Shown in pieces: positions 56,073 through 63,754 of a stretch of 64,000 bases of DNA (position 1 is its first letter; each line of letters begins with the position of its first letter). The DNA comes from an uncultured Pseudomonadota bacterium (GTDB lineage: Bacteria > Bdellovibrionota_B > Oligoflexia > Oligoflexales > CAIYRB01). The stretch covers positions 1 through 64,000 of the forward strand of contig CAIYRB010000117.1 in assembly GCA_903928445.1 (NCBI GenBank), read 5' to 3'. The notes under the pieces are model-generated. The model did not search any database. It was not told where the DNA came from and saw only the letters and a list, made by a program, of their open reading frames with translations. The position numbers and the translations under genes were made by a program.

Positions 56073-56921
56073 ATGTCCATGCTTTGGTTTAGGCTGTATG
56101 TGCTGTTGTTATCGCCGCTGACCTGGTTGGTCTTCGTCATGGGGGCGACGATCGGCAGTTTTCTCAACGTCTGCATTTACCGCATTCCCCTCGGAACCTT
56201 TTTCAAACACCACCGTTCGGTCTGCCGTGGCTGTGCCGCGGAAATCCCCTTTTATCTTAATATTCCGATTCTTAGCTGGATTTTTCTGCGGGGAAAGGCG
56301 CGTTGTTGTGGGATGTCCCTGGGTCTGCAGTACCCGTTGGTCGAGTTGCTCACTGGCTTGCTCTTTGTGGTGATCTACTGGCGCTTTCCCTTCGTCACTC
56401 TCGGCGATGAAGGGGCCGCTTGGGATGGGGCCAATATGCTGCGCTGTGTGCACGCCGCGATCTTTTGTTCGCTGCTGCTCGTGTGCTCGGTGATCGATAT
56501 GCGCTTGATGATTATCCCGGACGTGATCAGCCTGCCGATGATCGCCTTGTCGCCGCTGGTGGTTTATCTGCATCCGGATCTCGATTGGCCCAGTGCGCTG
56601 ATCGGCGTCTTTGCTGGAGGTGGCAGCCTGTACGCGGTTGCCTGGCTATACTGGTTGATTCGCCGTGAGGTTGGCATGGGTATGGGAGACGTCAAGCTGC
56701 TTGCCGCCATCGGTGGCTGGCTTGGCTATCAAGCGATCGTACCCACGGTTTTCTTCGGCTCGTTGCTCGGTGCGATCGGCGGTGTTTTGATGATGGCGGC
56801 GAGTCGTCGTTTGACCCTCAGGACGGCGATCCCGTTTGGGCCTTTTTTGGCCCTAGGTGCTATAATTCATTTGATCCTCGGCCCGTATATCCAAGAGTTG
56901 ATGCTTCGCTACTCCAGCTGA
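56073..56921 (+). CDS. Prepilin peptidase (A24, PilD-like)
   Basis: A 282-residue polytopic inner-membrane protein. Catalytic aspartates D142 (IDMRLMIIPD) and D206 (GMGDVKLL) and the N-terminal GSFLNVCIYRIP are those of type IV prepilin leader peptidases. The zinc-type Cys motif is present as CRGC (51-54) and CC (78-79), a shortened version of the usual CxxC pair. It cleaves and N-methylates pilin or type II secretion pseudopilin precursors. No pil or gsp genes adjoin. Followed 21 bases later by the GGDEF gene. Confidence 0.93.
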   Translation: MSMLWFRLYVLLLSPLTWLVFVMGATIGSFLNVCIYRIPLGTFFKHHRSVCRGCAAEIPFYLNIPILSWIFLRGKARCCGMSLGLQYPLVELLTGLLFVVIYWRFPFVTLGDEGAAWDGANMLRCVHAAIFCSLLLVCSVIDMRLMIIPDVISLPMIALSPLVVYLHPDLDWPSALIGVFAGGGSLYAVAWLYWLIRREVGMGMGDVKLLAAIGGWLGYQAIVPTVFFGSLLGAIGGVLMMAASRRLTLRTAIPFGPFLALGAIIHLILGPYIQELMLRYSS

Positions 56922-56942: not shown

Positions 56943-58004
56943 ATGATGACAAAACCAGACCCAGGGGTGGCCATCCCGACTGACGCGATCCAGTTTTTGC
57001 AGGATCTCCAGGATACTGCGCAAACCCTACTCGGCGCCCCCGGTCCGAAAGCGTTGCTGCGTCGCTTCGGTGAAGCCATGCAACGGCTGTTTGTAGTCGA
57101 TCGCTTTGACTGCCTGCGTTTGAGCGGCGCGGGCGCAAAGCTGGTGCTTAAGCGGCGCGCCGTTAAGGTCCCGAACGCCGATTTACTGAGCGACGACCTG
57201 GTGCAGCAGCTGACTGCGGCGCTCGCCGGCGCCGCCCAGCCCAGGGCCGTGTGGGGCCCTGGTTGCAGTCGAATTGAGGTTGCCGGACAGCAGCTTTATG
57301 TGGCGCTGATAGACGATCCCCGGGCGCGCAGCGGCACCTTGGTGGCCTGGACTGAGCCCTCTCATGAAGTGGTCGTGCCTGCGGCAACACTGCGTTTACG
57401 CGATGCGCAGCGGGAGCAGCTTGTCCGCGTCATGCAAAACGAGGCCCGCTGGTTGCGCAAGCTCGATCGCACCCAGGCACGCCTCTACCGCGACTACCTC
57501 ACCGGTCTGTATAATTACCGCTACCTCGAGATTGCCCTGGAGCACGAGTTGCGCCGTGCTGAACGCTTTCAAAACAACTTTTGTCTGCTGTTTCTTGACC
57601 TGGATGGATTTAAGCCGATCAACGACCAGCATGGGCATTTAAGCGGTAGCGGCGTCCTCAAGCAGGTTGCCGAGGTGCTGCGCGAGGTCCTGCGCGAGAT
57701 CGATATTCCGATCCGGTATGGTGGTGATGAGTTTGTCGTGCTGCTGCTTGGTGCTAGCTGTGCCAAGGGCGTGCTGGCCGCCGAGCGCGTTCGGCATCGC
57801 ATCGAGGAAACCGCCTTTGTGGTCGATGGCGGTCGCACGCATTTGACAGTGTCCATTGGTGTTGCGGCGTACCCAGAGCATGCGCGTGATATGGGCAGCC
57901 TGCTTAAGCTTGCCGACGAGACCATGTACAGTAGCAAGCGCAACGGAAAAAACCGGGTCACAGTGGTCGAGTCCATGGATGTCCCAGAGAAAGGACTGGC
58001 GTGA
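56943..58004 (+). CDS. Diguanylate cyclase with N-terminal GAF-like region
   Basis: A 353-residue cytoplasmic enzyme making cyclic-di-GMP. The GGDEF active-site motif is intact (260-264), and an RxxD inhibitory site lies five residues ahead (REID), so product inhibition is expected. The N-terminal 150 residues look like a GAF-type sensor domain with a short linker helix. It follows the prepilin peptidase by 21 bases and overlaps the thioesterase by four bases (GTGA). Possible receivers of the signal include the PilZ protein at 168. Confidence 0.92.
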   Translation: MMTKPDPGVAIPTDAIQFLQDLQDTAQTLLGAPGPKALLRRFGEAMQRLFVVDRFDCLRLSGAGAKLVLKRRAVKVPNADLLSDDLVQQLTAALAGAAQPRAVWGPGCSRIEVAGQQLYVALIDDPRARSGTLVAWTEPSHEVVVPAATLRLRDAQREQLVRVMQNEARWLRKLDRTQARLYRDYLTGLYNYRYLEIALEHELRRAERFQNNFCLLFLDLDGFKPINDQHGHLSGSGVLKQVAEVLREVLREIDIPIRYGGDEFVVLLLGASCAKGVLAAERVRHRIEETAFVVDGGRTHLTVSIGVAAYPEHARDMGSLLKLADETMYSSKRNGKNRVTVVESMDVPEKGLA

Positions 58005-58507
58005 CTAGCAGCGGCAAGCATCCTCACATAAGCGCCACCCATCAAGAGCATTTGGTGCGGCCTCAGCATACCAATGCCCATGGAACGGTGTTTGGTGGTG
58101 AAGTCGTATCCTGGGTAGATATCGCGGCCGCATGCTGTGCCATGCGGCATAGTTCGACCCAAGTGGTGACGGCGTCGATCGATGCGATGGCCTTTCTCTC
58201 GCCGATTCATGTCGGCTGGGTTGTATGCCTAGACGCAAGCGTCAATTTTGCTGCCCGCACCAGCTGTGAGGTCGGCGTCAAGGTGACAGCGTTCAATCCT
58301 GTCACTGGGGAGCGCCATCATACTGCGACGGCTTATTTAACGTTCGTTGCGCTCGACAGCTATGGTCGCCCGACGCCGATTCCACCGGTGGAGCCGCAGA
58401 CGGCGGATGAGCACCGTCGCTACGCTGCCGGACAAAAGCGGCGTGAGGAACGTCTGCGCCTTAAAGCTGCGCTGCAAGGCCGTGGTGCGAAAACCGTTGC
58501 CACCTAA
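58001..58507 (+). CDS. Acyl-CoA thioesterase (hotdog fold)
   Basis: A 168-residue YciA/BACH-type hotdog thioesterase. The catalytic region is NAHGTVFGGEVVSWVDIAAA, followed by VVTASIDAMAFLSPIHVG. It hydrolyses acyl-CoA to free acid and CoA. GTG start overlapping the stop of the diguanylate cyclase gene. The Lys/Arg-rich C-terminal tail is disordered. The next gene (DUF4105) starts 11 bases on, so the whole run from 56073 may be an operon. Confidence 0.9.
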   Translation: MTSSGKHPHISATHQEHLVRPQHTNAHGTVFGGEVVSWVDIAAACCAMRHSSTQVVTASIDAMAFLSPIHVGWVVCLDASVNFAARTSCEVGVKVTAFNPVTGERHHTATAYLTFVALDSYGRPTPIPPVEPQTADEHRRYAAGQKRREERLRLKAALQGRGAKTVAT

Positions 58508-58517
58508 GAGAGCTGCT

Positions 58518-59816
58518 ATGCACCCAGGTTTTGCGCGCTTCGTCTTAACTTGTTGGCTGTTGCTAGGAGCTTTAGTTCAGCCGGCCTTGGCTCAGGACAG
58601 CATGGTCCCGCCAATGCCAAAAGACATGGCGCAAGTCGAGATGTTTCTGCTCACCGTCGGCCGCGGCACGCAAATCGAGGCCCTGTTTGGCCACACCATC
58701 CTCCGCGTGATAGATCATGGCAGCGGTCAGGATTTGGCCTATAACTGGGGTATCTTTGATTTCTACGATCCGTTGTTCATCTGGAACTTCTACCGCGGTG
58801 AACTACGCTACATGCTTGGGATCTATCCGACGCCTGGGTTGATTGATTACTATCGCAATGTCGAGCGGCGCTCGATCATGCAGCAGCAACTCGTGTTGAC
58901 GCTTAGGCAAAAGACGGACCTCATGCAACGTCTTATCCGCAATGCGCTGCCGGCAAACGTCCATTATCAGTATTCGCAGCTTCGAGACAACTGCGCCACC
59001 AGGCCGCGCGATCACCTCGATGCGATTCTCGGTGGCAAGATAGGCGAGGCATTTAAGCACCGGCCAAGTTTCGCGACTTATCGCGATCATATGAAGGCAA
59101 GCGCCAGTCCCGTGTGGTGGGTGGCCATGAGCCTCGACATGCTGACCAATGATGTTCTTGATGTCCCCCTCAGCAATTGGCACGAGATGTTCCTGCCGCT
59201 TCGTTTGCAGCAGCTACTGTCCCAAATGCCGGCGTTTGCTGACAGCGGCGAGGAGATCTCACATCAATCACTGTTGACTGCACCGGAGTGGCTGGTCGAC
59301 CTTCCCGAACCGCTGCCGGGCCCAGACCCCTACGCCATGTGGTCGCTGCTTGTTGGCGGGCCACTAAGTTTGCTGCTGCTTTGGACCTGGCTGACGCCAG
59401 GGTCCTCCCGCCCAGCGCGGATGCTCGGTTTGAGCAGCGTTGTCTTCGGTTTTTGGTCGGCTTTTTGGGCGACCCTGCTGGTCTGCAATTGGGCGCTGTC
59501 GCGTTATATCGAGACACCGCACAATGCGCTGCTATGGCTGCTGTGGCCGGTTGATTGGATCTTCGTCTACTATGGTATTAGACTCATCGGTAAGGGTGCG
59601 CTACCGATCGCGGCCTCGCCGCTCGGGCGGTTGGTGCGCGGGACTAGTTTACTCCATGTGGTGGCCTTCGCCTTTGGGGCCATACTCTGGATGGTCGGAC
59701 TTGTGCATCAGGATATTCTGCCGATGCTAGCGTCCTATGGGTTGTTTGGAGCGCTCTTCTTTGTCACGATCTGCTGCCACGGAGCAGCCCAGGGGAGTCG
59801 GTCAGTCGATGCGTAA
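58518..59816 (+). CDS. DUF4105 membrane protein
   Basis: A 432-residue protein. A signal peptide (about 1-29, ending ALAQ) leads to a periplasmic DUF4105 domain (about 35-270) with FGHTILRVIDHG, YNWGIFDFYDP and the NCATRPRD segment with its conserved Cys. Five transmembrane helices follow (about 275-430). This combination of a NlpC-like papain-fold candidate with membrane helices is seen in bacterial envelope proteins of unknown role. The ATG at 58518 with aagagag upstream is used. Overlaps the sigma-factor gene by eight bases. Confidence 0.82.
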   Translation: MHPGFARFVLTCWLLLGALVQPALAQDSMVPPMPKDMAQVEMFLLTVGRGTQIEALFGHTILRVIDHGSGQDLAYNWGIFDFYDPLFIWNFYRGELRYMLGIYPTPGLIDYYRNVERRSIMQQQLVLTLRQKTDLMQRLIRNALPANVHYQYSQLRDNCATRPRDHLDAILGGKIGEAFKHRPSFATYRDHMKASASPVWWVAMSLDMLTNDVLDVPLSNWHEMFLPLRLQQLLSQMPAFADSGEEISHQSLLTAPEWLVDLPEPLPGPDPYAMWSLLVGGPLSLLLLWTWLTPGSSRPARMLGLSSVVFGFWSAFWATLLVCNWALSRYIETPHNALLWLLWPVDWIFVYYGIRLIGKGALPIAASPLGRLVRGTSLLHVVAFAFGAILWMVGLVHQDILPMLASYGLFGALFFVTICCHGAAQGSRSVDA

Positions 59817-60594
59817 TGTTGGCAAGCAAGAAAAGAATTTTAGCCGCTTCAAATCAGGTCACGCCAGTGCCCTATATGACCTTCTCGAGAGCGAGCGGCC
59901 TTTTCTCTATGACTATCTGATGCGGATGACCAGCCAGGTCAGCCGCTCTGCGGACTCCATCAATGAAGTCTATGAATCCTTGAGCGAGGAGGTCATTTCG
60001 GTCATCGAATCCGCCCGTGATCTGCGGTTGGTCCTGTATACGACGGCAAGGCGGTTTAATAGCGACATTTGGAACGCCGAGACCAGTCGATTGATCAATG
60101 CCGCCTTACAGCCAGCTACAGATCAGACCCAGTCGGAGAACGAGGCCGCGATGCACCGCGATGCGGCCCTGCTCGATAAGGCACTGCGCAGCTTGCCGGG
60201 TCCCCAGCGCGAAGTGGTCTGGTTGCATATTCTCGGTGGATTTTCTTTTGAAGAGGTGGCGCAGATCGTCGGCGTCGCTGAGTCTGGGGTCGAAACGCTC
60301 TATCTTGGCGGTGTCGGGGCGCTAGACGCCGAGGCCGAGGAGGCTTGTGGTCCGGCGCAAACCGCTTTGACTAAACTGCCGCCACACCCCTTGCCCACCG
60401 CTTTGACGAATGCGACGGTCAACCTGAGCATGATCATGGCCGGGATCAAGGTCAAACCAACGGGGATTCGTTCCGTCACGCGGATGATTTTGTTGGGCCT
60501 TGCCGTGGTGTGCGGGGTGATTTGGTATACCGTGCCCCACGCCGTGATCAAATCCTTTCTCCCCAGCTGGATGCCTTTTTTGAACAAGTTTTGA
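59809..60594 (+). CDS. ECF-type sigma factor with C-terminal membrane anchor
   Basis: A 261-residue protein. Residues 12-95 resemble a weak sigma-70 region 2; region 4 is clear (about 122-170: LRSLPGPQREVVWLHILGGFSFEEVAQIVGVAESGVETL). A linker and a transmembrane helix (about 225-244) follow, then a short periplasmic end. Sigma factors are normally soluble; a membrane-fused sigma factor suggests it must be freed, for example by proteolysis. Its ATG lies inside the DUF4105 gene end (eight-base overlap), so the two proteins are made together. Confidence 0.75.
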   Translation: MRNVGKQEKNFSRFKSGHASALYDLLESERPFLYDYLMRMTSQVSRSADSINEVYESLSEEVISVIESARDLRLVLYTTARRFNSDIWNAETSRLINAALQPATDQTQSENEAAMHRDAALLDKALRSLPGPQREVVWLHILGGFSFEEVAQIVGVAESGVETLYLGGVGALDAEAEEACGPAQTALTKLPPHPLPTALTNATVNLSMIMAGIKVKPTGIRSVTRMILLGLAVVCGVIWYTVPHAVIKSFLPSWMPFLNKF

Positions 60595-62144: not shown

Positions 62145-62984
62145 ATGCTCTCAGCCTTGGTCCGGGACAACGTCAGACCTTTAGTTCCAGATTTTGTTCG
62201 TCCCTGGACGATTCTCCGCGGGGGGGCGGGTGCCTTTACCCGGAAGATCGCTGTCGACTTTAAAGTCCGCGATTTCCGCGTCAAGACGGTGGAGAATCCG
62301 GACGAATTAAAGCAGGTCCTAGCGCTGCGCCGCTCGGTGTTTCACTATGAATTCGCTGGCAAGTGGTTAAGCCTGAAAAGCGATCAAGACCTCTTTGACG
62401 AACATGCTGATCACTTGGCGATTTTTGACGAGAAAGCCGGGGTAGTCGCCGGCGTCTATCGGTTGATTTCTTCCGCCAGCAGCCGCAGCTTTTACTCCAA
62501 CACCGAATTTGATATCAGCCGCTTCATGGCGCAGCCTGGCGTGAAACTTGAACTCAGTCGAGCCTGCATTGGGCCGAGCTACCGCAACGGGGTCGTCATC
62601 AGTCTGCTCTGGCGAGGTATCGCCGACTATGCGAAGAAGGCGGATGTTGACTTTCTTTTCGGGCTTAGCAGTATCAACACGACGGATGTCAAACACATCG
62701 CCGCGATCCATCGCCATTTTGCGGCTGCCGGACTGCTCAACGATGAGTGGGCTTTGACGCCGCGGGCGAAGTACGAGATCGCTAACTTCGCGGCAGTCTT
62801 GGCTGTGGCTGAGACCGCCGCCGCGGCCGCAGTTCCAACGTTGTTCAAAACCTATATTAAAGCCGGAGCCAAGGTATGCTCACAACCGGTGATCGATCGG
62901 GACTTCAACTGCGCGGACTGGCTCATCGCGTTAAATATGCGGGAGTTGGTCAAGAGCTACGACAGACGCTTTATGGGCTCCTGA
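62145..62984 (+). CDS. OlsB-like GNAT N-acyltransferase
   Basis: A 279-residue protein of the OlsB/hemolysin acyltransferase family. LRRSVFHYEFAGKW, DEHADHLAIFD and LELSRACIGPSYRNG match the ornithine N-acyltransferase motifs. OlsB makes lyso-ornithine lipid from ornithine and 3-hydroxyacyl-ACP. A Phe/Ala-rich C-terminal segment of about 60 residues is extra. It overlaps the PlsC-like gene by 109 bases. Substrate could be another amino acid; the family is clear. Confidence 0.82.
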   Translation: MLSALVRDNVRPLVPDFVRPWTILRGGAGAFTRKIAVDFKVRDFRVKTVENPDELKQVLALRRSVFHYEFAGKWLSLKSDQDLFDEHADHLAIFDEKAGVVAGVYRLISSASSRSFYSNTEFDISRFMAQPGVKLELSRACIGPSYRNGVVISLLWRGIADYAKKADVDFLFGLSSINTTDVKHIAAIHRHFAAAGLLNDEWALTPRAKYEIANFAAVLAVAETAAAAAVPTLFKTYIKAGAKVCSQPVIDRDFNCADWLIALNMRELVKSYDRRFMGS

Positions 62985-63754
62985 GAGCCGGAAGCAAATT
63001 TGGCGTCTGCTGCGTGGTGTTTTTGTCCTTTGTCATCGCTTCGTTGCTCTTGCGCCTTGTCACTTGGTCGCCCTATCAACGCCGCCTTCGGGCGACGCAT
63101 TTGTCGCAGCTTCTGGCGCGGTTTTTGCGTCGCCTTCTCAATCTTCGCTGCACCGTTGAGCAGTCGGGTCGGCCGCTCGAAGGCGTTCATCAGGGTTTGT
63201 TGCTCGTACCAAATCACTTGTCTTATTTGGACGTCGTCGTCATCGCTGCGGTCTTCCCAGCAGTGTTCGTCACTTCCCGTGAAATTCAAGTCACTCCGAT
63301 ACTGGGTGCTGTGACCAAAGCCGCAGGTTGCGTCTTCGTTGAGCGTCGGCATAAAGCCGACATTTTGAGCGATATCGACCAATTGTCGGCATTGCTCAAC
63401 TCTGGCTTGAATGTCGTGCTCTTCCCCGAGGGAACCACCTCTGCCGGCGACCGTCTTATGGAATTCAAGCGATCTCTGTTAGAATCAGCAGTGAGGAGTC
63501 GCAGTCGAGTGATCCCTCTTTGTCTGCGCTATGATGGCGTGGACGGACACAGTTTTGATGCCAGCAACCGCGACCAGGTTGCCTGGTACGGTGACATGAA
63601 GTTCTTCCCGCACTTTTGGCAATTGATGTCCCGCCGTTCGATTGACGTCCGCTTATTCGTCCTCAACGAGGTCGCCTTTCGTGGCCACAGATCTCGCAAG
63701 CGCCTTACCCATGATGTCAAATCTCAAATTGCCGACTGTTTCCACGCGACTTGA
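62876..63754 (+). CDS. PlsC-like lysophospholipid acyltransferase (OlsA candidate)
   Basis: A 292-residue membrane-associated 1-acylglycerol-phosphate acyltransferase. NHLSYLDV is the HX4D catalytic motif; FPEGTTSAGD and the following LLESAVRSRSRVIPL also match. A hydrophobic segment (about 45-62) anchors it. Downstream of OlsB it is probably OlsA, which adds the second acyl group to lyso-ornithine lipid. The ATG at 62876 lies 109 bases inside olsB; a GTG near 63016 would remove the overlap but also the basic N-terminus. Confidence 0.85.
   Translation: MLTTGDRSGLQLRGLAHRVKYAGVGQELRQTLYGLLRAGSKFGVCCVVFLSFVIASLLLRLVTWSPYQRRLRATHLSQLLARFLRRLLNLRCTVEQSGRPLEGVHQGLLLVPNHLSYLDVVVIAAVFPAVFVTSREIQVTPILGAVTKAAGCVFVERRHKADILSDIDQLSALLNSGLNVVLFPEGTTSAGDRLMEFKRSLLESAVRSRSRVIPLCLRYDGVDGHSFDASNRDQVAWYGDMKFFPHFWQLMSRRSIDVRLFVLNEVAFRGHRSRKRLTHDVKSQIADCFHAT

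Follow-up and report, generated by a model that had tools for sequence, protein, structure and literature searches.

The window, by which we mean the whole 64,000-nucleotide stretch of DNA that was analysed, carries a conserved gene cluster whose last member encodes an ECF-sigma-like protein, referred to here as SIG (Table 1). The cluster is order-wide and runs from a divergent MutS2 gene through genes for an A24 prepilin peptidase, a GGDEF protein, a 4HBT thioesterase and, in most genomes, an Lnb-type protein to SIG. The initial annotation of this DNA described a 261-residue chain with sigma region 4, a linker and its own transmembrane (TM) helix, and the open reading frame, start and stop are as it gave them. 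The ATG of SIG lies inside the last eight bases of the DUF4105 gene (59809-59816), the overlap that it noted, and the two genes are translationally coupled; no separate anti-sigma factor adjoins SIG, and this layout is conserved. A longer SIG frame starting at 59737 was rejected, as it has no support from the N-termini of orthologues.

Table 1. Genes of the conserved cluster and features of SIG in the window
Feature	Position	Strand	Remarks
Prepilin peptidase (A24)	56073..56921	+	first gene of the conserved cluster
Diguanylate cyclase (GGDEF)	56943..58004	+	intact GGDEF; RxxD I-site five residues upstream
4HBT-family acyl-CoA thioesterase	58001..58507	+	operon conservation
Lnb-type DUF4105 (PF13387 Lnb_N) protein, 432 aa	58518..59816	+	ATG at 58518, just past the thioesterase stop
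SIG, tail-anchored ECF-sigma-like protein, 261 aa	59809..60594	+	
WNADTSxLxN motif, SIG residues 83-97, FNSDIWNAETSRLIN	60055..60099	+	occupies the place of region 2.4 (-10 reader)
Helix corresponding to the -35 recognition helix, SIG residues 156-173	60274..60327	+	acidic; no Lys/Arg in the window protein
C-terminal TM helix of SIG, ~residues 220-241	60466..60531	+	N-terminus predicted cytoplasmic

SIG consists of a sigma2 domain (residues ~9-97), a sigma4 domain (~120-175), a linker of ~45 residues and a single C-terminal TM helix. Region 4 is matched by Pfam Sigma70_r4_2 (1e-9), whereas Pfam Sigma70_r2 has no match in the window protein and reaches at best 0.008, in three of the 23 orthologues. 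Region 2 is nevertheless present as a homologue, though degenerate, because the NCBIfam sigma70-ECF model TIGR02937 spans residues 21-165 (2e-12, 47.1 bits, cut-off 42.9), the SIG family profile aligns with both domains of B. subtilis SigW (positions 9-172, 2.6e-11), and a structure search with the AlphaFold model (mean pLDDT 85.6, low in the linker around residues 200-220) returns the ECF sigma factors SigW, Bartonella RpoE-NepR and CnrH-CnrY. NF009166 likewise spans residues 8-161 (3e-17). Absence of region 2 is thereby ruled out, although the Pfam region 2 model does not detect it. Three more distant orthologues score 22.7, 22.4 and 15.1 bits with TIGR02937, under its cut-off. The entire chain is accounted for: Pfam and NCBIfam give no match to a receiver domain, and Pfam detects no anti-sigma domain (ZAS/FecR) in the stretch that joins sigma4 to the helix.

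The membrane helix is a family trait. All full-length SIG orthologues have it at the C-terminus, including all 22 that were aligned with the window protein; in all 23 aligned members the Kyte-Doolittle-19 maximum is 1.63-3.2, whereas the C-terminal parts of 17 canonical ECFs of this lineage reach 0.19-1.06. Juxtamembrane charge favours an N-terminus-inside topology in most members, a stretch next to the membrane is conserved (TxNLSxIMxGIK), and the tail past the helix is 0-31 residues long, without a sensing domain.

The spread of SIG was assessed within the phylum, in 58 genomes from two main groups. The 15 genomes from elsewhere in the phylum have no orthologue, whereas 28 of the 43 in the order have one; a 29th copy, in G039, is cut by the contig end. 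No divergent SIG was hidden downstream in the nine SIG-negative loci inspected. A contig scan for relatives led to the sister species alone, and a 97% identical copy occurs in a Lake Pavin MAG named 'Proteobacteria bacterium' (JAPLFX010000012.1). The dN/dS of SIG between the two closest species is 0.073, close to that of the operon enzymes (0.05-0.16), and SIG is under purifying selection. Over longer range its divergence outpaces that of its neighbours (mean distance 2.1 versus 0.5-1.3). A chance reading frame or a frameshifted fusion is ruled out by this dN/dS and by the same end structure in 28 genomes; the order-wide conservation and purifying selection make the observation more than chance.

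The glutamine of region 2.2 and the basic patches of sigma factors serve core and promoter binding. An alignment of 17 canonical ECF-type sigma factors from the same genomes with the 23 members of the SIG family shows that most of these residues are gone from SIG. The region 2.2 glutamine (DxxQE core-polymerase contact) is present in all 17 canonical ECFs and in 3 of the 23 SIG members. The net charge of region 2.4 is -0.8 in the SIG family versus +2.65 in canonical ECFs (p 4e-7), and position 89, Arg or Lys in 17/17 canonical ECFs, is neither in any SIG member (Asn in 15/23). The recognition helix of region 4.2 has a net charge of -1.2 versus +4.1 (p 2e-7; range within the SIG family -4 to +3), with Glu or Asp at position 162 in 18/23 SIG members versus Lys or Arg in 13/17 canonical ECFs. 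Judged by this alignment, the family has mostly lost the region 2.2 Gln, the basic region 2.4 and, in most members, the basic 4.2 helix. The loss in region 2.4 is not random drift, because a common WNADTSxLxN stands in its place; Trp88 is found in 22/23 members, which points to a new constraint rather than decay, and Leu95 in 21/23. The other strongly conserved stretches are LFDYLMRMTG, RExxLL..GF and TxNLSxIMxG. We therefore think it probable that SIG is not a promoter-reading sigma. On the other side, the window protein scores above the curated sigma70-ECF cut-off, the recognition helix is net-positive in two exceptional members (L049 and L063), and the acidic Glu/Asp after the region 2.2 Gln is retained in 22/23. 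Nonetheless, the working sigma factor held at the membrane that the initial annotation had proposed is hard to reconcile with the loss of the -10 basic patch, the 2.2 Gln and, mostly, the -35 basic helix; its anatomy was right and its mechanism probably was not.

In most cases a membrane anti-sigma factor holds the ECF, and fusions of both exist (PMC8999054). With IutY, ECF48/52/53 and ECF36 already known (PMC8999054), a membrane-fused sigma is not in itself the new layout for which it was first taken. IutY, ECF48, ECF52 (SCO4117) and ECF53 resemble SIG in having an ECF module and a membrane helix in one chain and no separate anti-sigma. However, their chains include a zinc-finger ZAS or FecR-like anti-sigma domain, large extracytoplasmic parts or both, and their described role is that of sigma factors, whereas SIG has a linker, one helix, a tail of 0-31 residues and degenerate promoter-reading regions. 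It is unlikely, in our view, that SIG is a real ECF sigma that is tethered by its own helix and freed by intramembrane proteolysis (RseP/FtsH-like), as in IutY. On the one hand, the ECF superfamily match spans regions 2 and 4, SIG is the sole ECF-type protein in several genomes, TM-fused ECFs activated by proteolysis exist (PMC8999054), and a site-2 protease could in principle directly cut an N-in, single-pass protein with a short tail. On the other hand, such a sigma would have to work with the residue losses described above, without an anti-sigma domain between sigma4 and the helix, without a periplasmic sensing domain and, in four SIG-positive genomes, without an adjacent Lnb.

A sigma fold that has left promoter recognition has a precedent in PhyR, a soluble sigma mimic (PMC4598750). 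Its sigma-like domain shares the sigma2-sigma4 fold with SIG and does not act as a sigma factor. Two PhyR sequences matched by the SIG profile have an equally acidic helix where the -35 recognition helix would lie; thus, the absence of these residues can be the sign of a mimic. Unlike SIG, which is bound to the membrane, lacks a receiver and occurs mostly, among the genomes checked, without another ECF sigma, PhyR is a soluble protein with a receiver domain that frees EcfG by titrating NepR. A PhyR-like decoy, in which membrane-held SIG sets another sigma factor free by binding an anti-sigma factor, would fit the fold and its degeneracy. PhyR models also match 9 of the 23 SIG members (best 3.5e-4), and the SIG model resembles the closed ECF/anti-sigma complexes SigW-RsiW, RpoE-NepR and CnrH-CnrY (target TM-scores 0.63-0.67) more closely than it does the ECFs of initiation complexes. 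CnrH-CnrY and SigW-RsiW resemble SIG in this closed ECF conformation and in placing a sigma fold at the membrane, but there the anchor is a separate anti-sigma protein. We nevertheless regard a decoy as improbable. Besides the missing receiver domain, in 9 of the 10 SIG-positive genomes checked the region 2 proteins are solely of RpoD, FliA and RpoH type, and therefore there is no ECF to free and none whose anti-sigma could be titrated; a decoy would need to act on FliA/RpoH control, of which there is no evidence here.

Only RpoD, FliA and RpoH types, with no canonical ECF, were seen in G004, G005, G013, G014, G020, G024, G026, G032 and G035. The window's own genome has one ECF, and nothing clear in the way of anti-sigma factors was found beside its few sigma genes. 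It also encodes a degenerate-looking sigma-like protein of 191 aa beside a flagellar-switch-like gene (L191:656-1231, minus strand, contig C137 of G000). Elsewhere in the order, G011 and G022 have 26 and 15 region 2 matches, respectively.

The protein encoded upstream of SIG has a signal sequence, a periplasmic permuted-NlpC/P60-type domain and, in its model, five C-terminal helices, in agreement with the five-helix architecture first ascribed to it. It matches PF13387 Lnb_N at 2e-21, and its catalytic residues His59 and Cys159 are invariant across 20 sequences from relatives. The Bacteroides Lnb is the missing lipoprotein N-acyltransferase, DUF4105 being the Lnb_N family (PMC12994826). The two proteins are alike in the Lnb_N domain, the catalytic His and Cys and the C-terminal helices; they differ in that the window protein matches NF051878 at 6e-41 and 140.5 bits, far under the equivalog cut-off of 550. 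A PDB fold search with the model gave no significant match, and its top two hits, CLN5 (E 0.14) and TseH (E 0.22), are only in line with a putative NlpC/P60-like enzyme. Because the protein is Lnb-type and its His59 and Cys159 are invariant, it is likelier an enzyme than the envelope sensor that the initial annotation saw in it; by homology, it may N-acylate lipoproteins. Classical Lnt (TIGR00546) is found above the cut-off in 1 of the 43 genomes of the order (G024), versus 8 of 9 in the sister group, where the ninth genome has a split gene. Almost all genomes of the order encode Lnb_N proteins, which makes the order a candidate for a natural Lnt-to-Lnb replacement. In addition to the window protein, the same genome has a second Lnb-type frame of ~490 aa (G000 C123:29207-29617) and three longer Lnb_N proteins of ~660 aa (C11, C16 and C29).

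By tallies from gene maps of genomes that are not phylogenetically independent, 22 of 26 assessable genomes have Lnb as the gene immediately before SIG. SIG directly follows the thioesterase, with no Lnb between, in G008, G016 and G023, and in G034 SIG is located elsewhere. Conversely, G007, G009, G015, G017 and G021 have the cluster Lnb and no SIG (G017 less surely, as its contig ends just past Lnb). SIG and DUF4105 had been proposed to form one signalling system that would fall if related genomes carried SIG without the helix or without this neighbour. The helix proved to be conserved, but the neighbour is absent in four genomes; therefore, by that rule, the two-part system fails. A role for DUF4105 as the sensor partner of SIG is weakened both by the Lnb homology and by this independent presence and absence. 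The same pattern, four genomes with SIG alone and five with the operonic Lnb alone, counts against SIG as an Lnb helper, that is, an assembly factor or a monitor that feeds back on lipoprotein maturation, as does the placement of the two proteins: the sigma module is predicted to be cytoplasmic and the Lnb catalytic domain periplasmic. The eight-base overlap, the frequent direct adjacency, the near-absence of classical Lnt from the order and a partial SIG-Lnb co-variation (r = 0.33-0.40) speak for such a helper, which we hold to be about as improbable as a decoy.

Co-variation was measured by a mirror-tree test on neighbouring genes from few genomes. With the MutS2 (species) signal removed, the distance correlation of SIG and the GGDEF protein was r = 0.61 with 13 genomes and 0.69 with 16 (permutation p 0.0002), the highest among operon pairs; when the GGDEF protein was split into halves, the co-variation was inconsistent and unstable. 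The GGDEF gene lies beside A24 in all 27 assessable SIG-positive genomes versus 4 of 11 SIG-negative ones, a co-occurrence confounded by shared ancestry.

The explanation that we favour, tentatively and a little short of calling it probable, is that SIG is an order-specific, tail-anchored pseudo-sigma that has been repurposed as an adaptor at the cytoplasmic face of the membrane. SIG would no longer direct transcription itself; it would show a sigma-like helical docking surface on the cytoplasmic side of the inner membrane, where it would bind a protein. An adaptor working with the diguanylate cyclase is favoured because this enzyme has the strongest co-variation with SIG and keeps strict company with it. 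The operon diguanylate cyclase is thus the best-supported partner, on weak evidence, and this step is a guess that we consider doubtful. With this partner, SIG would position c-di-GMP synthesis at the membrane or control it there, close to where prepilins are processed and lipoproteins or lipids acylated. It is possible, though with less confidence than for the adaptor as such, that the family serves as a membrane-side adaptor both for c-di-GMP signalling and for the modification of envelope lipids and lipoproteins, in bacteria that often lack another ECF sigma.

Precedents exist for TM-fused ECFs and for sigma mimics, and we found no report of their combination in one small protein in the open-access literature searched. 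If SIG is indeed a pseudo-sigma adaptor, a sigma fold would have left transcription to become a membrane adaptor, and the annotation 'sigma-70 family RNA polymerase sigma factor' would be wrong for an order-wide family. SIG would join PhyR as a second sigma mimic, with an unrelated layout, and would call for caution with genome ECF counts. In an order nearly without classical Lnt, the conserved cluster would link an Lnb-type protein with pilin processing, c-di-GMP and acyl-CoA.

The GGDEF motif and the RxxD I-site of the operon diguanylate cyclase are retained in relatives, except for GGDEY in G023. SIG and an M28 peptidase are closely followed by an overlapping pair of genes (62145-62984 and 62876-63754) whose best NCBIfam matches, under the cut-offs, are the ornithine-lipid enzymes OlsB and OlsA.
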